DNA of 64,000 nucleotides from Deltaproteobacteria bacterium (GTDB lineage Bacteria > Desulfobacterota > Syntrophia > Syntrophales > JACQWR01), in the NCBI GenBank assembly GCA_016209105.1, contig JACQWR010000024.1, positions 62,001 to 126,000 on the forward strand, in the 5' to 3' direction. A program made the position numbers and the translations under genes. Shown piece by piece: positions 55,471 to 62,756 of the stretch (position 1 is the first letter of the stretch; every line of letters starts with the position of its first letter). The notes beneath the pieces were generated by a model. It was not told the DNA's origin, did not search any database, and saw only the letters and a list, made by a program, of their open reading frames with translations.

Positions 55471-57927
55471 ATGACTATCAGCAAACGCATTTCTCTCATT
55501 CTTCCGTTTACGATTATCGGTATCTTACTGTTAATCGCGGCTGCCCCGGCGGCCTTTGCAGGTGAGGCGGACATCAATCTACCCGATTTGACCAATGTCG
55601 TTTTCAACATCTTCGGCAGTTCCGTACAGGGAACAACCATCCTCAACTGGGGACTGATCATCTGCATCATCGGCATGATTTTCGGTGTCATCCAGTACAA
55701 TCAGACCAAGAGCCTGCCAGCCCATCGTTCCATGCTCGACGTGTCGAACACGATCTGGGAAACCTGTAAAACCTATCTTACCCAGCAGGGAAAGTTTCTT
55801 TCCGCACTCTGGGCACTCATCGCGATTTGCATCATTTACTACTTTGCCGGATTGCAGGGCGCTCCAGCATCGAATGTAATTATTATCCTGATCGCCTCCA
55901 TCATGGGGATCCTGGGATCGTACGGCGTCGCCTGGTTTGGCATCCGGATCAACACCGTCGCCAATTCTCGTGCGGCTTTCGCCTCTCTGCGCGGCATTCC
56001 GCTGGATATCGTCAATATCTGTCTCCGTTCGGGTATGAGCGTGGGCCTGCTCCTGGTGAGCGTGGAACTCTTTTTCATGATCTGCATCCTGGCCTATATT
56101 CCGAAAGAACTGGCGGGACCCTGTTTCATCGGTTTTGCCATCGGGGAGTCCCTCGGCGCCAGCGCGCTCAGGATCTGCGGCGGTATCTTCACCAAGATTG
56201 CGGATATCGGCTCCGACCTCATGAAAATCGTCTTCCACCTTCCCGAAGACGACCCGAAGAATCCGGGCGTCATCGCGGACTGCACGGGTGACAACGCGGG
56301 AGACAGCGTCGGCCCTACGGCTGACGGGTTTGAGACCTACGGGGTAACCGGGGTCGCCCTCATTGCCTTTCTTGCTCTGGCGCTCTTCAGCAACCCCGCC
56401 ATGGGCGGCAAGCTCATCATCTGGATCTTTGCCATGCGTATCCTGATGATCCTCACCTCGCTCGTTTCCTACTTCGTCAACGACGTGGCAAGTAAATCGC
56501 TCTTCGGCGACAAGAAAGAATTCGACTTCGAGGTACCGCTCACGAACCTCGTGTGGCTCACCTCGGCAATTTCCATTATCGTCACCTTCGTCGCCAGTTA
56601 TGTACTTCTCTCGGATCTGACGGGCGTGCAGAGCTCCCTCTGGTGGACGCTTTCCATCATCATCAGCTGCGGAACCGTTGCCGGCGCCCTGATCCCGGAA
56701 TTTACGAAGGTCTTCACCAGCACCAAATCCCGGCATTGCGAGGAAGTGGTCAATTCCTCTCGCCAGGGCGGGGCATCCCTGAATATTCTCTCCGGGTTTG
56801 TGGCGGGTAACTTCTCAGCTTTCTGGGAAGGGCTTGTCATCCTCCTGCTCATGTTTGTTGCATACCTCGTCTCCGGCAACGAATCCATCACGACGCTCAT
56901 GCCGGCGGATTTAAAATTCGCCGCACCGGTTTTCGCCTTCGGTCTGGTGGCCTTCGGTTTCCTCGGCATGGGACCCGTAACCATCGCCGTGGACAGCTTC
57001 GGTCCCGTATCGGACAATGCCCAGTCCATCTACGAACTTTCCATGATCGAACAGATCCCGGATGTGAAGAACGTAATAAAAAAGGAATTCGGCTTCGAGC
57101 CGAACTTTAAAGAATCCAAGGATTACCTGGAAGCGGCAGACGGGGGAGGAAACACGTTCAAAGCCACGGCCAAGCCGGTGCTGATCGGAACGGCGGTGGT
57201 GGGCGCCACCACGATGGTCTTCGGCATCATCATCCTCCTGGACCGCCTCTTCGGTGACGTGGAGGCGCATTTAAGCCTCGTACAGCCAGAGGTTATCCTC
57301 GGTCTCCTCATGGGCGGATGCGTGATCTACTGGTTCACCGGCGCTTCTTGCCAGGCCGTTGTCACGGGATCCTACCAGGCCGTCGTCTTCATCAAAAATA
57401 ACATCAAATTGAGTGACAAGTCGGCATCGATCGCAGACAGCAAGGAAGTGGTTAAGATTTGTACCCAGTATGCCCAGAAAGGGATGATCAATATCTTCGT
57501 GGTCATTTTCTTCATGGCCCTGGCACTCTCTTTCTTCGATCCTTATTTCTTCATCGGCTACCTCGTGGGTATCGCCTTCTTCGGCCTTTTCCAAGCCATC
57601 TTCATGGCCAACGCGGGAGGCTGCTGGGATAACGCAAAGAAGATCGTGGAAGTTGACCTGAAGGAAAAGAACACGCCGCTGCACGAGGCGACCGTCGTCG
57701 GTGATACCGTTGGTGACCCCTTCAAGGATACCTCGTCGGTTTCCCTGAACCCCGTTATCAAGTTTACTACCCTCTTTGGCCTGCTCGCCGTGGAAATCGC
57801 CGTAGAAATGCAACGGTCTGGCCTTACGGGACTCAAGATGACACTGGCCGCGGTTTTCTTCCTGATCGCACTGGTTTTCGTCTATCGTTCGTTCTATAAT
57901 ATGAGAATTTCTTCAGAAAAGCTGTAA
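55471..57927 (+). CDS. hppA: Membrane proton-pumping pyrophosphatase
   Basis: Couples PPi hydrolysis to ion pumping, a known energy-saving device in syntrophic and fermentative anaerobes. It has 818 residues and about 16 membrane segments. The PPi site is seen in IADCTGDNAGDSVGPTADGF near residue 268 and in GDTVGDPFKDTSSVSLNP near 742. The segment GNTFKATAKP (about 565) has Lys where K+-dependent enzymes have Ala (GNTTAA), which points to the K+-independent, H+-pumping type. A signal-like N-terminus is present (AAPAAFAGEAD). It directly follows pth and ends at a strong terminator. Confidence 0.95.
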   Translation: MTISKRISLILPFTIIGILLLIAAAPAAFAGEADINLPDLTNVVFNIFGSSVQGTTILNWGLIICIIGMIFGVIQYNQTKSLPAHRSMLDVSNTIWETCKTYLTQQGKFLSALWALIAICIIYYFAGLQGAPASNVIIILIASIMGILGSYGVAWFGIRINTVANSRAAFASLRGIPLDIVNICLRSGMSVGLLLVSVELFFMICILAYIPKELAGPCFIGFAIGESLGASALRICGGIFTKIADIGSDLMKIVFHLPEDDPKNPGVIADCTGDNAGDSVGPTADGFETYGVTGVALIAFLALALFSNPAMGGKLIIWIFAMRILMILTSLVSYFVNDVASKSLFGDKKEFDFEVPLTNLVWLTSAISIIVTFVASYVLLSDLTGVQSSLWWTLSIIISCGTVAGALIPEFTKVFTSTKSRHCEEVVNSSRQGGASLNILSGFVAGNFSAFWEGLVILLLMFVAYLVSGNESITTLMPADLKFAAPVFAFGLVAFGFLGMGPVTIAVDSFGPVSDNAQSIYELSMIEQIPDVKNVIKKEFGFEPNFKESKDYLEAADGGGNTFKATAKPVLIGTAVVGATTMVFGIIILLDRLFGDVEAHLSLVQPEVILGLLMGGCVIYWFTGASCQAVVTGSYQAVVFIKNNIKLSDKSASIADSKEVVKICTQYAQKGMINIFVVIFFMALALSFFDPYFFIGYLVGIAFFGLFQAIFMANAGGCWDNAKKIVEVDLKEKNTPLHEATVVGDTVGDPFKDTSSVSLNPVIKFTTLFGLLAVEIAVEMQRSGLTGLKMTLAAVFFLIALVFVYRSFYNMRISSEKL

Positions 57928-57984: not shown

Positions 57985-58021
57985 ATTTAAGAGAAAGGCG
58001 TTTAAATTATCTGTCGGTAAA

Positions 58022-58232
58022 ATAAAAAAATGGCGGATGGAAAAGGAGGGATCCTAAAAACCATCCGCCACTATGTAAACTGAGAGGTTTTGTGCGGTCG
58101 TGCCTCCCAGATTATCTGAGGGGGCCGGTGGATGGAGAGGAGGGTATGAACCATCCACCGAATTTAAAACTCACAGATTATCTTAACGGTTAGTGCCAAT
58201 CTGCCAGATTTTCAATTTTCAAAAAACGATTG
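58022..58232 (-). ncRNA. Candidate sigma-54-dependent small RNA with two CCCUCC-loop hairpins
   Basis: An RNA of about 210 nt is predicted on the minus strand, from a start near 58232 (12 bases after the sigma-54 -12 element) to the U-tract at 58024-58030. Hairpin 1: CGGTGGATGG/CCATCCACCG (arms at 58151-58160 and 58126-58135), loop UUCAUACCCUCCUCU. Hairpin 2: TGGCGGATGG/CCATCCGCCA (58061-58070 and 58031-58040), loop containing GAUCCCUCCUUUU, followed by UUUUUUU, so it also serves as terminator. The two hairpins differ at two stem positions and both differences are compensated. A middle stem (58080-58087 with 58103-58110) is fully paired only on the minus strand, where one pair is G-U; the plus strand would have A-C. 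Both loops expose a perfect complement to the Shine-Dalgarno GGAGG. No reading frame of note is present. Confidence 0.65.
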
Positions 58233-58242
58233 CCTAATATAT

Positions 58243-58258
58243 AGCAAAAGGAATGCCA
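58243..58258 (-). promoter_or_regulatory. Sigma-54 (-24/-12) promoter of the small RNA
   Basis: On the minus strand TGGCATTCCTTTTGCT: GG at -24 and GC at -12 with correct spacing, and TTGCT matching the -12 block exactly. It differs from TGGCACGNNNNTTGCW only at CG (here TT). Confidence 0.68.
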
Positions 58259-58418
58259 CATTAAGAAAATAATATCTTGCAGGAAAAGATAAAAAGTGAT
58301 TTTAATTAAAACATAATGATGACGTCATATTACAGTTGAAAAAAGATGAAATATTTCTTCGGAAAGACGTTTTTCCATTCGTTCTTGGGGAAAAATAAAG
58401 CAGGATAAAGGAGAGAAT

Positions 58419-58521
58419 GTGCGATTTATGCACTAAGAAAAAGAAATAAAAACAAGAAAGCCCTTCTATACAAAGAAACAGCCGCTGTGCGATAAACGCA
58501 CCATATGTGCGATAAATGCAC
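58419..58521. promoter_or_regulatory. Three dyad sites, likely enhancer for the sigma-54 promoter
   Basis: Three 15-bp near-palindromes with identical GTGCG..GCAC arms: GTGCGATTTATGCAC (58419-58433), GTGCGATAAACGCAC (58487-58501) and GTGCGATAAATGCAC (58507-58521). The last is extended by perfect CCATAT/ATATGG arms to 58501-58527. They lie about 170-265 bp upstream of the promoter at 58243, normal for sigma-54 enhancers. The last two are 20 bp apart. Confidence 0.6.
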
Positions 58522-58565
58522 ATATGGTAACTTAAAGTTATTATTGATATTCCTGAGGAACATCA

Positions 58566-60737
58566 TCATTTCTCATTCGCTCGTTTGCCCTGCGGCAAGC
58601 CGCTGGGTAGGAGCTTGTTGCCGAATTCAATAAAACCATTGATTTTTTTCTGTTCACGCATGAATTTATAACGGGAAATGCCCAAGAGGGTGGCTGCTTT
58701 CGTCTTTCTACCCATACTCAAATCAAGAGCCCTAACGAGAACCTTCTTTTTGGTATCATTGAGAATTTTCTCTATCAAACTCTCATATTTCAATCCATTC
58801 TCGGATAACCGTGTTAGTATATCATCAAGGCTATCCTTAACTAAGCCCTGGTTTACTCTGATCTCTGCGGGAAGGTTTTCCGGAACAATCACATCCCCTA
58901 CATCATGGAGAATCATGATTCGTTCAATGATGTTTTTCAATTCCCGGACATTGCCCGGCCAGTGGTAGTTTTTCAGAATTTGCTCGGCATCCTTGTCAAA
59001 GCCTTTAACCTTCTTCATGAATTTTTTATTGAACTCCTCGACATAATACCGGGCCAGAAGAATGATATCGTCCACCCGCTCCCGGAGCGGCGGGATCAGA
59101 ATGGGTACGACACTGATCCGATAGTAGAGGTCTTCACGGAAGCTTCCTTGGGCAACCATGCGATTCAGATCCTTGTTCGTGGCAAAAACGAAGCGGATAT
59201 CCACGGGAATTTCTTCATTTCCTCCCAGCCTGCGGATGTATCCGTCTTCCAGAACTCGCAGGAACTTCGCCTGCAGATGCACGCTCATGTCCCCGATCTC
59301 ATCCAAGAGCATGGTGCCGCCGTTCGCATATTCCAGGAGGCCTATTTTTCTCTTCCTTGCATCAGTAAAAGCGCCCTGCTCGTAGCCGAACAATTCACTC
59401 TCCAGCAGCGTGCCCGGTATGGCGGCGCAGTTTACCTCAACAAAGGGCTTGGAACTCCTGTTGCTCTGCCGGTGTATGGCCCGGGCAGTCAACTCCTTGC
59501 CCGTGCCGCTCTCCCCCTGAATCAGGATGTTGGTATTATGTCCGGCAACATCTTCGATCACATGAAAAAGATCGAGCATCTTCTTTGACTGGCCGAGAAT
59601 ATTGTGAAACCCCAGCAGGATGTCTTCCCGCTCCTTGAGCTTTTTGACCTCGGTTTTCAGGGTCTTGGCCTCAAGGTAGAGCATGGCCTGCATGATGGCG
59701 TTGTCGTATGCAGTAATGGCATTTTTCACCAGGATATCCAGGACGTGAACCTGGTCCTGGGAATAGCTGCCGGAAACCTTTGCAATATAAAGCGCCCCTT
59801 CAAACTTGTTTACGGTACAGAAGGGGATGGCTATCTCCACAGGATGGCCGGCAAAAAGTCCTTCCCTTGTTGAAGGCGACTTCAATGCCACCGTTTTATC
59901 CGCTATCGCCTGCCTGATGACCCCGTATCCCATTTTCTGCTCGTAGATTTCCTTGTCTTGAGAGATCGCCTCCCCGTCTTTGACGATATAACGGCCCTTG
60001 AGCATGTCATGGAAACAGAAAAGAGCCTTCTGGGCGTGGGTGATCCTGAGAGCGCTCTCTATCATGATGTCATGGATACGATAATCGAGGACGTAATTGG
60101 AATTCATCGAAGAGACCGCTTCCTGGAGGATTATCAACTGGCGTATCTTCTCCGCATTCGTTTCAAAGAGCGTCATATTGTAAATAATGATGCTCATCTG
60201 GTTGGCGAAGGTAAGGAAAAGGTCTATCTCCTCGGGATAAATCCTGGTTCCTTCGCGGCGCCAAGCAACGATACTGCCGATTACCTCATCGCCGATCTTG
60301 AGAGGCGCGCAAAAAAGAGCCCCCCGGTCATCAATGTTTGCCAGTACCCGGTCTGTTTCCGTCATCCGCGGATCAGTCGCCGCATCTGCAATGGTAATCG
60401 GCTGGCCCGTCTTTGTAACCTTGGCTGATATGCAGTCGTTCTCATAGACATCAATGGCGAGGGAAAATGCCTTTTGCGCCTCCTCTGGGGGATAGTTTTT
60501 CACCACCTTCGTTTCCAAATAGCGTTTCGTTTCATCAAAAAGGCGGATAATGCCCCGGTCGAATCCTATCGTATCCACCGTTTCATCCAGAATTTTTGAA
60601 AGAATCTCGTCAACCTTTGAGGGCGCGGTGAGGAAGGTGCTGATATGGAAAATGCTCTTGAGCAGTTTGTCCTTGTCCAGCAAAGACACGGAAGCTTCCG
60701 CACCATCAGGTATCGTAATAGGGGTTATGGTTTCCAT
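58566..60737 (-). CDS. Sigma-54-dependent activator (GAF-GAF-AAA+-Fis)
   Basis: An enhancer-binding protein of 723 residues from the ATG at 60737 (GAGGG upstream); an in-frame GTG at 60800 is possible. Two GAF-like sensor regions (about 20-175 and 190-345) precede AAA+ with GESGTGKE, the GAFTDA version of the sigma-54 contact loop (Asp for Gly) and WPGNVRELKNIIERI. A Fis-type helix-turn-helix (RKTKAATLLGISRYKFMREQ) follows. The last 19 or so residues (FGNKLLPSGLPQGKRANEK) are encoded by an inserted REP-like half repeat, so the original C-terminus was shorter or different. Downstream on the same strand lie three dyads and a sigma-54 promoter for a small RNA, its most likely target. The cNMP-binding gene ends just upstream. 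Confidence 0.93.
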   Translation of the reverse strand: METITPITIPDGAEASVSLLDKDKLLKSIFHISTFLTAPSKVDEILSKILDETVDTIGFDRGIIRLFDETKRYLETKVVKNYPPEEAQKAFSLAIDVYENDCISAKVTKTGQPITIADAATDPRMTETDRVLANIDDRGALFCAPLKIGDEVIGSIVAWRREGTRIYPEEIDLFLTFANQMSIIIYNMTLFETNAEKIRQLIILQEAVSSMNSNYVLDYRIHDIMIESALRITHAQKALFCFHDMLKGRYIVKDGEAISQDKEIYEQKMGYGVIRQAIADKTVALKSPSTREGLFAGHPVEIAIPFCTVNKFEGALYIAKVSGSYSQDQVHVLDILVKNAITAYDNAIMQAMLYLEAKTLKTEVKKLKEREDILLGFHNILGQSKKMLDLFHVIEDVAGHNTNILIQGESGTGKELTARAIHRQSNRSSKPFVEVNCAAIPGTLLESELFGYEQGAFTDARKRKIGLLEYANGGTMLLDEIGDMSVHLQAKFLRVLEDGYIRRLGGNEEIPVDIRFVFATNKDLNRMVAQGSFREDLYYRISVVPILIPPLRERVDDIILLARYYVEEFNKKFMKKVKGFDKDAEQILKNYHWPGNVRELKNIIERIMILHDVGDVIVPENLPAEIRVNQGLVKDSLDDILTRLSENGLKYESLIEKILNDTKKKVLVRALDLSMGRKTKAATLLGISRYKFMREQKKINGFIEFGNKLLPSGLPQGKRANEK
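58570..58624 (-). repeat. Half REP-like repeat inside the end of the activator gene, copy 13
   Basis: On the minus strand after TTGAAT: TCGGCAACAAGCTCC, hairpin CCCAGCGG-CTTG-CCGCAGGG and AAACGAGCGAATG. It is read through by the activator frame, which stops at 58566-58568. Confidence 0.8.
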
Positions 60738-60804
60738 GGAAAATATTCCCTCAAAAAGTGATACTCCCCGCTCATAAGACGGGACCTGCAGGGTGTGCAC
60801 CCGG

Positions 60805-61374
60805 TCAGGATTCTTTCAAAACGATGCTCAGCACAGTGGTAAGTTTAACCGTATCCTCATCGGCCTTCCTGAGTCTTGCGCTGATGATCCTTGCCAGATT
60901 CATAAATATCCGATACCCCAGCTCATGGTCCGTCCCGGTAAGGTTCAGAAAGGCATCCCTTGTTATTTCATAGAGCGTACATTTTGTCACCGCCCGTATT
61001 GTTGCCGTTCTCTTCAATTGCTCCAGCAGGGCGATTTCTCCGAAAACGGCATGGTCCTCTGCCGTGAGTTTCGTAAAAACCTTGCTCTTTTCCCTATCCT
61101 CATCCATATCACTCATAATCAGGCTTTTCACCACCTCCACGATGCCATCCAGGATGATGTACATCGTGTCCCCCTCTTCGCCCTCCCTTGCGATAACCTC
61201 ATCCTCCGCAAAGGTGACGAGGCGGCAGACATCCAACACCTTTCTGATCTGCACCTGGCTCAGATTTCTGAAGAGCTCCGTCTCCTGCAGGAATGATATA
61301 TCCTTTTCCGCTAAGAACTCCATAGTACGGCTTGTCTCCCGCTTCTGTTCGGTGATGACGCCCGCGAAGCTCAT
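60805..61374 (-). CDS. Cyclic-nucleotide-binding-domain protein without HTH
   Basis: 189 residues carrying one cNMP-binding beta-roll (residues 30-150). The phosphate-binding cassette reads FGEIALLEQLKRTATIRAV, keeping the Gly-Glu and Arg needed for cAMP or cGMP. No DNA-binding domain follows; the C-terminal helix (IFMNLARIISARLRKADEDT) looks like a dimer or partner interface. It is on the same strand as, and just upstream of, the GAF activator, and downstream of the K+ channel gene, so these three may form a signalling unit. Confidence 0.87.
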   Translation of the reverse strand: MSFAGVITEQKRETSRTMEFLAEKDISFLQETELFRNLSQVQIRKVLDVCRLVTFAEDEVIAREGEEGDTMYIILDGIVEVVKSLIMSDMDEDREKSKVFTKLTAEDHAVFGEIALLEQLKRTATIRAVTKCTLYEITRDAFLNLTGTDHELGYRIFMNLARIISARLRKADEDTVKLTTVLSIVLKES

Positions 61375-61418
61375 GCCTACGGGACGTGTCCTGCAAAATA
61401 TGCTTACCGTTACCCCTT

Positions 61419-62591
61419 CTACGGCATGCCTCGGGAAATAACCACGGCAAAATCATCACCCGTTATGACATAATCGTCCTCCGGATTAATGATGCCCTTC
61501 GTTTCATCCCGTTCGTAATAGAAATCTTTCTTCGCCTCCTGGATCTTTTCCCTGATGAAGTTGTCAATCATGGAGGTATTGTCCGAAAGCAAGTCCGCCA
61601 GTTTTACCGCCTTCTTTTCCTTCAAGAGTCCGATCAGAATAGCGTGTTTTTTCTCCCGATAAAAGACCGACAACTCCCTAAATGTCTTACCCACAAAAAC
61701 ACGGGGGATTTCAACCCGCCTGAGCTTGTTGGCGTCTCCCAGCGACAGCATGCCGGAAAACACGCCGGGAATCCCCGGCGAATTTACGGCGCTTGCCAGA
61801 AGAGAACCCACGTGTTCTCCCCGCACGATGATCTCGTCCACGTTGGCCCTTCTCAAGTGCGGCTTGTTCTCCCCGTGAAAGAGTTCGGCGATCATCTTAA
61901 TCTGCGGAGCAAGCGATTTGATAGCGAGGGCCGCCAGTGTCGTCCGTTCATCAGTGTTTTCCTGAGAATGGCGGCCGGAGGTGTCGGCCATGATAAGGGC
62001 AAATGACGCCTTGGCCACATTGGCCCGCAGAAGGACATCCTCATGAACGTAGTTGCCTCGGAGAAACCTGAGCTTGTATTTACTATATTTCAATTTGAGC
62101 GAATCAATCTCGTCAATGGACAGTTCGTTGATCAGGACTATGGGCGTTTCTTTCTGAGAGCCGTAAACGGTAAGGCCGGAGATAACCTCCTCGGTATTAT
62201 TATTCCAGCCGCAGATAATGATGTGCCCCTTTTCATTGACCGTTTCCAAACCCCTTCCCTCCCTTATCTTTTTCTCCACAAATACGGAAGCAATGGTCGC
62301 GGTAAACAGCGACATCAGACCAACACCGGAAAAAATCAGCACCATTCCCACAACTCTTCCGCCCGGCGACAGGGGATACTTGTCCCCGTAACCGACCGTG
62401 CCCATCGTCACAATCGCCCACCAGATGCCGTCCCAAAGGGAACCTATGTTGGCATCGCCGTGCGCGTGCTCGAAATAATGAACACCGACGGCGCTCAAAA
62501 CAATTAATGCCACCGTAGCGGCAGTAATCTGGAAGAAACGTACGGTTGTCAAATCCCGGAGCGCTTTCAATACTTTCAAAAAAGGCGACAT
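61419..62591 (-). CDS. K+ channel with RCK (TrkA-N/TrkA-C) domain
   Basis: Two membrane helices around a pore loop with the selectivity filter TVGYGD (residues 65-70, in VTMGTVGYGDKYP). A cytoplasmic Rossmann-type RCK domain follows (GHIIICGWNNNTEEV near 120) and a C-terminal TrkA-C-like region. It resembles MthK-type ligand-gated channels. The ATG at 62591 is preferred (GAGAGG upstream) over a basic extension from 62657. It has 390 residues. It precedes the cNMP-binding gene on the same strand by 44 bases. Confidence 0.92.
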   Translation of the reverse strand: MSPFLKVLKALRDLTTVRFFQITAATVALIVLSAVGVHYFEHAHGDANIGSLWDGIWWAIVTMGTVGYGDKYPLSPGGRVVGMVLIFSGVGLMSLFTATIASVFVEKKIREGRGLETVNEKGHIIICGWNNNTEEVISGLTVYGSQKETPIVLINELSIDEIDSLKLKYSKYKLRFLRGNYVHEDVLLRANVAKASFALIMADTSGRHSQENTDERTTLAALAIKSLAPQIKMIAELFHGENKPHLRRANVDEIIVRGEHVGSLLASAVNSPGIPGVFSGMLSLGDANKLRRVEIPRVFVGKTFRELSVFYREKKHAILIGLLKEKKAVKLADLLSDNTSMIDNFIREKIQEAKKDFYYERDETKGIINPEDDYVITGDDFAVVISRGMP

Positions 62592-62639
62592 GGGAAGCCT
62601 CTCATCCGGGAAATTTGCCCCCGGCAGACGTGGCCGCAT

Positions 62640-62756
62640 CCGGCAACAAGCGCGCATTCCCCGCAGCTCATAACGACGGATTTCGCGAGCGAATGCTTAC
62701 TGATCCTATTTCTCAAGAATAGAGATTCTCCTCCGTTTGCTCAAGGAGAGCTTCAA
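62640..62756 (+). repeat. REP-like structured repeat, copy 14
   Basis: CGGCAACAAGCGCGCATTCC at the left, first stem partly decayed (CCCCGCAGCTCATAACG), GCGAGCGAATG, linker TATTTCTCAAGAATAGAGA, second hairpin CTCCTCCGTTTGCTCAAGGAG, end CTTCAA. It lies five bases from the fusA stop. Confidence 0.78.

Follow-up and report, generated by a model that had tools for sequence, protein, structure and literature searches.

The 64,000-nucleotide stretch analysed here (the window) carries, on the minus strand from 58521 to 58020, three dyads, a -24/-12 promoter, the hairpins A, M and B and a T-tract, in this order. The set sits between two convergent genes ending at 57927 and 58566, the former of which we take to be hppA. 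Re-examination of the sequence gave the same coordinates, element order and strand as an earlier sequence-only reading, including its -24/-12 promoter and its terminator U-tract, present as T7 directly after hairpin B. The features were as follows.

58566 to 60800, minus strand: sigma-54 activator (Pfam: one GAF domain, AAA+ sigma-54 interaction domain, weak Fis-type HTH)
58507 to 58521, minus strand: upstream dyad 1, GTGCATTTATCGCAC, a likely activator (enhancer) site
58487 to 58501, minus strand: upstream dyad 2, GTGCGTTTATCGCAC
58419 to 58433, minus strand: upstream dyad 3, GTGCATAAATCGCAC
58244 to 58259, minus strand: sigma-54 type promoter, TGGCATTCCTTTTGCT, with transcription expected to start near 58233
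58020 to 58233, minus strand: predicted RNA of about 214 nt (fold z = -5.0, covariation)
58126 to 58160, minus strand: hairpin A, loop UUCAUACCCUCCUCU (arms 58160-58151 and 58135-58126; CCCUCC at 58144-58139)
58120 to 58124, minus strand: CCCCC tract 3' of hairpin A (CCCC conserved among the aligned loci)
58080 to 58110, minus strand: middle hairpin M, CUGGGAGG / CCUCUCAG (arms 58110-58103 and 58087-58080; covariation)
58024 to 58070, minus strand: hairpin B and T7, terminator (arms 58070-58061 and 58040-58031; CCCUCC at 58050-58045)

The dyads belong to the class GTGC-N7-GCAC. They had been described as three identical-armed copies; all three lie upstream of the promoter, but they are not identical, the copies agreeing with the reference at 76% and 88% over 17 nt. 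The pattern occurred at 54 places in the own genome against 65 for the reversed control and was therefore not over-represented, and no second cluster of three dyads was found among the places listed. The activator had been taken for a GAF-GAF protein, whereas Pfam found one GAF domain, not two, and no receiver domain. Upstream of the activator gene (60805-62657, minus strand), a cyclic-nucleotide-binding-domain protein and a potassium channel with a TrkA-N domain are encoded, to which the signal of the activator might relate.

Linkage to the activator and distribution in the order

Of 60 genomes, 43 had an orthologue of the activator (E <= 1e-100), which gave 44 places; the downstream DNA was read at 43 of them. 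Hairpin A was present in 35 of the 43 loci; none was found beside the activator in L008, L013, L017, L019, L036 and L041, and the contigs of L012 and L027 end too early. The activator and the RNA occurred together in 42 of the 60 genomes, the activator only in one, the RNA only in four and neither in 13 (Fisher 6e-9, kinship ignored). The contig is cut in the activator-only genome (G046), and two of the four RNA-only genomes hold an activator fragment at a contig end. Homologues of the RNA thus mostly sit next to the same activator. In L036, inspection by eye showed a dyad and a sigma-54 type promoter below the activator, followed by a universal-stress-protein-like frame instead of the RNA.

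The promoter seen in the window was conserved in relatives beside the orthologous activator, as were the dyads. Among the 35 related upstream stretches, 33 contained GTGC-N7-GCAC and 22 had at least two such dyads, and the strict sigma-54 promoter pattern was present in 25; base shuffles would give 0.1 stretches with the dyad and 0.25 with the promoter. Nine of the ten stretches without the strict pattern contained a near-consensus promoter by eye; no promoter was found by eye in L044, which has a run of N at that place. A GAGACC...GGTCTC pair flanking the 5' leader just below the promoter was seen by eye in L003, L018, L021-L023, L027 and L029; it is possibly a further RNA element, and none was seen in the window.

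A covariance model of hairpin A (R1) was built from the alignment A1, 35 rows from loci beside activator orthologues, which match it by construction. Within the same order, which record titles identify as Syntrophales, the model matched 86 of 149 genomes, indicating that the RNA has homologues among relatives. In a draw of 395 genomes from the phylum, 12 were matched, eight from the same order and four weakly outside it (E 9e-4 to 9e-3), where about four are expected by chance. The exact pattern occurred in 36 stretches among all genome contigs, 34 of them labelled Deltaproteobacteria, Syntrophales or similar (one Pseudomonadota); the labels included Syntrophales, Syntrophaceae, Syntrophus and unplaced Deltaproteobacteria. 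Exact-pattern stretches in Hymenobacter and Peptococcaceae were rejected, as the hairpin pattern gave no match there.

Some genomes hold additional copies of the RNA, a point absent from the sequence-only reading. Twenty further loci were fetched, and the hairpin pattern detected a copy in 13 of them; a strict promoter lay within 600 nt in five of the 13 and a dyad within 900 nt in seven, some of the contigs ending there. In four genomes of one genus (G019, G035, G047 and G056), RNA and activator are at separate places, and the RNA is accompanied in all four by promoter, dyad and small ORF. In the closed 3,179,300-base genome G035:C1, the activator match near 1969277 (L041) covers residues 3-501 only, and the DNA beyond it resembles a transposase gene by eye. 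About 1.4 Mb from this match, near 584583 (L169), stands the RNA module together with its promoter, dyad and small ORF. At L178 (G022:C194), two hairpin-A copies were observed about 300 nt apart near a GTPase-like frame (by eye), and no strict sigma-54 site was found within 500 nt upstream.

In many relatives, a small ORF of 65-79 codons (19 aligned) lies between the promoter and hairpin A and carries two FF motifs, like EYDFFIS and DQSxxFFLPD. A profile of this ORF gave 37 matches in 32 of 100 genomes and no match in the window's own genome. Judged by eye from positions, all but one of the 37 precede a hairpin match by about 15-105 nt, and the remaining one (G046) is at a contig end; in G060 and G080 the model match below the ORF is probably hairpin B. 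The pN/pS ratio was 0.27-0.62 in 12 of 12 pairs compared, as for a coding frame, and a Pfam scan of two of the small FF-motif proteins found no family. As the ORF shares the predicted transcript in many relatives, the RNA often resembles a 3' UTR more than a free-standing transcript.

Loop complementarity and competing readings of the hairpins

The complementarity of the loops to ribosome-binding sites, pointed out in the sequence-only reading, was confirmed. The hairpin A loop of the window is ACCCUCCUCU, the core making up six of its bases. Among the aligned loci, the loop was exactly CCCUCCUUU in 32 of 35. The own genome contains a GGATCACCTCCTTT place with which this loop has eight bases, CCUCCUUU, in common; the place has the usual 16S 3' end and is presumed to be the 16S tail. 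Two observations on hairpin B count against an anti-Shine-Dalgarno role: its loop in the window partly pairs with itself (AGGA with UCCU), and the hairpin or its loop deviates in a number of relatives. A search for Hfq was negative in all 21 genomes of the order that were examined and positive in 5 of 14 controls.

Target prediction was based on perfect 9-nt sites in one genome, with expression level uncontrolled. The own genome contained 28 perfect AAAGGAGGG-N3-9-ATG sites, compared with 2 for the reversed pattern, and the Pfam scan of all 25 frames of at least 40 aa after these sites identified six TctC receptors and one NMT1-like binding protein. TctC genes stood behind 4 of 77 AAAGGAGG[ACT] sites (by position, counted by eye), so that 6 of 28 compares with 4 of 77 at Fisher p = 0.02, post hoc and in one genome; two of the 77 places overlap, which leaves p at 0.02 either way, and p rose to 0.06 once the chance levels from the reversed controls (2/28 and 19/77) were removed. 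A G followed GGAGG in 9 of 16 TctC genes and in 4 of 13 window genes (p = 0.26, not significant), a comparison drawn from 30 TctC loci, 5 of them with the wrong frame. The perfect sites thus give a weak, post hoc lead to TctC solute receptors as candidate targets. Because anti-Shine-Dalgarno complementarity is generic, target specificity is putative. The window's genome (G000) had 35 TctC solute-receptor matches in 2.7 Mb, seemingly a large set.

We consider it fairly probable that the locus encodes a trans-acting anti-Shine-Dalgarno sRNA, independent of Hfq and under a dedicated GAF-type sigma-54 activator, which blocks translation of certain mRNAs. The small ORF was examined for its own Shine-Dalgarno pairing at 14 of 16 starts, L015 and L030 being left out as their starts were unclear. 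At twelve of the 14, no duplex with the 16S tail reached -5 kcal/mol, whereas 37 of 42 window frames had one that did, although the window starts were picked for the best Shine-Dalgarno sequence, which favours the window frames. Being mostly without a Shine-Dalgarno sequence, the small ORF would escape the effect of the RNA. A bolder form of the idea, which we regard as doubtful, makes the RNA a ribosome mimic: the 16S octamer CCUCCUUU in the loops would compete with the 30S subunit for the strongest Shine-Dalgarno sites upon the GAF signal, throttling a wide range of strongly translated genes, beginning with solute receptors; the partner small protein, whose gene on the same transcript mostly lacks a Shine-Dalgarno sequence, would be spared by design.

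The hairpins themselves were analysed in two alignments. The A1 consensus was CGGUGGGUGGUUUU..UUCCCUCCUUUCCACCCACCGACCCCCU. Of its stem cells, 99.1% were paired, and changes at both partners of a pair affected 21; none of 500 shuffles was as high for either value. Three of ten pairs had changed, a value reached by 78 of 500 shuffles, and the number of pair types was reached by 369 of 500; shuffles often attain these two values because few positions vary. The second alignment, A3, comprised 14 of the 35 loci, picked for standard architecture and containing all of A, M and B. All three hairpins covaried in it, with both partners changed in 11 of 30 pairs, a value found in none of 500 shuffles. 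Hairpins A and B thus covary as had been described (A1, A3), but a count of two was incomplete, as the third conserved hairpin M lies between them; M is absent from the window's own minimum-energy fold. The compensated stem difference reported between A and B was also found, as U-A versus C-G. CCCC follows the hairpin A stem on its 3' side in 34 of 35 aligned loci. Conservation, covariation and strand bias in relatives indicate that the hairpins are under selection.

The stems are more fixed than pairing by the loops needs, which counts against the anti-Shine-Dalgarno reading; six 5' arm positions of hairpin A were G in 35 of 35 loci, and nine inner stem pairs varied by transitions only. For this reason we kept protein titration as the main rival of anti-Shine-Dalgarno repression, while judging it unlikely. 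The GGYGGRYGG stem and the CCCUCC loop would then form a protein-binding module that sequesters an RNA-binding protein or translation factor, like CsrB/RsmZ for CsrA. Besides these invariant G and transition-only pairs, the two similar hairpins per RNA would fit such a module, as would the hairpin B stem sequence, kept in several relatives although the loop differs. A loop that is itself the anti-Shine-Dalgarno sequence argues the other way, and there is no known candidate protein. Furthermore, the CsrA core GGA, carried by CsrA-sponge RNAs such as CsrB/RsmZ in several hairpin loops, is located here in the stems of A and B on the minus strand rather than in loops.

We thought it quite improbable that hairpins A, M and B are solely a 3'-UTR element that protects or terminates the small-protein message with no role in trans. 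This would agree with the T-tract that ends hairpin B and with the small-ORF matches, 36 of which immediately precede a hairpin match while the 37th sits at a contig end; yet the hairpins are kept without the ORF in the window's genome and others (e.g. L020-L025), and a terminator needs no fixed CCCUCCUUU loop.

The minus strand folded with z = -5.0 and the plus strand with z = -4.0, none of 200 shuffles folding as well in either case; the plus-strand value counts against an anti-Shine-Dalgarno role on the minus strand. As both strands fold better than shuffles, the strand cannot be told from folding alone. The contrast of G-U on the minus strand with A-C on the other, earlier noted in the window, was found there and extended to relatives, with 18 G-U against 3 A-C cells in A3 and 6 against 1 in A1. 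G-U being far above A-C (18 to 3), the functional strand is the minus strand. A plus-strand CsrA-type sponge with GGA loops (AAAGGAGGG), which the plus-strand fold and its GGAGGG loops would suit, was rejected as highly improbable on this count, the promoter, T-tract and small ORF likewise indicating the minus strand.

Relation to known systems and proposed mechanism

The RNA had not been recognised from its sequence, and Rfam agreed, with no match at gathering in the window or 20 related loci; a permissive scan of the region gave three chance-level matches (E up to 5), Qrr not among them. Literature searches found nothing on this RNA; among the papers searched, none joined Syntrophus aciditrophicus with sRNA, and none Syntrophales with small regulatory RNA. 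Qrr RNAs under LuxO in Vibrio have sigma-54 promoters, one adjoining or controlling activator and, in some genomes, several copies, and they need Hfq. The present RNA would resemble them in its conserved sigma-54 type promoter sequence with a linked activator, and likewise has several copies in some genomes; it differs in having no Qrr Rfam match (window and 20 related loci) and no Hfq found in 21 of 21 genomes. The Qrr-like design proposed earlier may apply to the sigma-54 type promoter and its linked activator. NfeR1, AbcR and CcsR are equally close in design.

The cited passages describe anti-Shine-Dalgarno motifs in hairpin loops of NfeR1 / alpha-r14 ('cuckoo') and AbcR1/2 of alphaproteobacteria, Hfq independence of NfeR1, and repression by NfeR1 and AbcR of mRNAs for periplasmic binding and transport proteins, the tested NfeR1 targets encoding periplasmic binding proteins (PMC10746234, PMC8844928). 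Insofar as these passages portray NfeR1 and alpha-r14, the present RNA shares with them an anti-Shine-Dalgarno motif in hairpin loops. Alpha-r14 is described there with CCUCCUCCC in each of three hairpin loops, whereas here CCCUCCUUU occurs in 32 of 35 loci and M has no such loop. By the same descriptions, the alphaproteobacterial RNAs belong to another phylum and have highly variable stems, in contrast to the nearly fixed stems here, and the present RNA differs further in its sigma-54 promoter with dedicated activator and in having no Rfam match.

At the CIN1 locus of Rhodobacter, as outlined in the portion cited, the small protein CcaF1 (71 aa) is cotranscribed with the tandem sRNAs CcsR1-4, followed by a 3' terminator (PMC10253847). 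On that outline, the likeness is a small protein gene and tandem hairpins on one transcript, here a predicted one, with a terminator at the 3' end. CcsR loops carry CCUCC motifs. CIN1 is presented with an RpoH promoter and a DUF1127 protein, whereas the present locus has a sigma-54 type promoter and an FF-motif protein without a Pfam match (two scanned); also unlike CIN1, the window's own genome has no small-ORF match. The Pxr sRNA gene of Myxococcus, in the sections cited, lies just downstream of an NtrC-like regulator gene and has its own sigma-54 promoter and three stem-loops, and function is lost when a C in the first loop is changed to A (PMC5568312, PMC5684412, PMC11928866). By that description the two loci are alike in an RNA below an NtrC-type regulator gene, the sigma-54 promoter and three stem-loops; the Pxr regulator is given as a member of a two-component system, whereas a GAF-type activator with no receiver domain found is present here. 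The RNA lacks defining features of Qrr, alpha-r14, CIN1 and Pxr and constitutes a new RNA family of the anti-Shine-Dalgarno-loop sRNA kind. The best reading is that it would work like NfeR1/alpha-r14 and CcsR and, like Qrr and Pxr, would be controlled by an NtrC-type activator.

We infer transcription of the RNA and binding of the activator: the dedicated GAF-type sigma-54 activator would bind the GTGC-N7-GCAC dyads and fire the -24/-12 promoter, yielding a structured RNA of about 214 nt that would end in its own terminator. In part of the order, the same transcript would also encode the small FF-motif protein. The hairpin loops, perhaps together with the CCCCC tract, would display CCCUCC, mostly as CCCUCCUUU in relatives, which closely matches the 16S rRNA anti-Shine-Dalgarno tail. 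Pairing in trans, repression and a target set are proposed: by base-pairing to AAAGGAGGG-type ribosome-binding sites, the loops would keep certain mRNAs from being translated, with no need for Hfq. The RNA is conserved in this order of syntrophic bacteria, apparently switched on by a dedicated sensor, and probably blocks translation of selected genes. If true, this would give organisms that live close to life's energetic limit a first proposed post-transcriptional switch, and would be an independent case of the design joining a small protein to anti-Shine-Dalgarno hairpins known from alphaproteobacteria.
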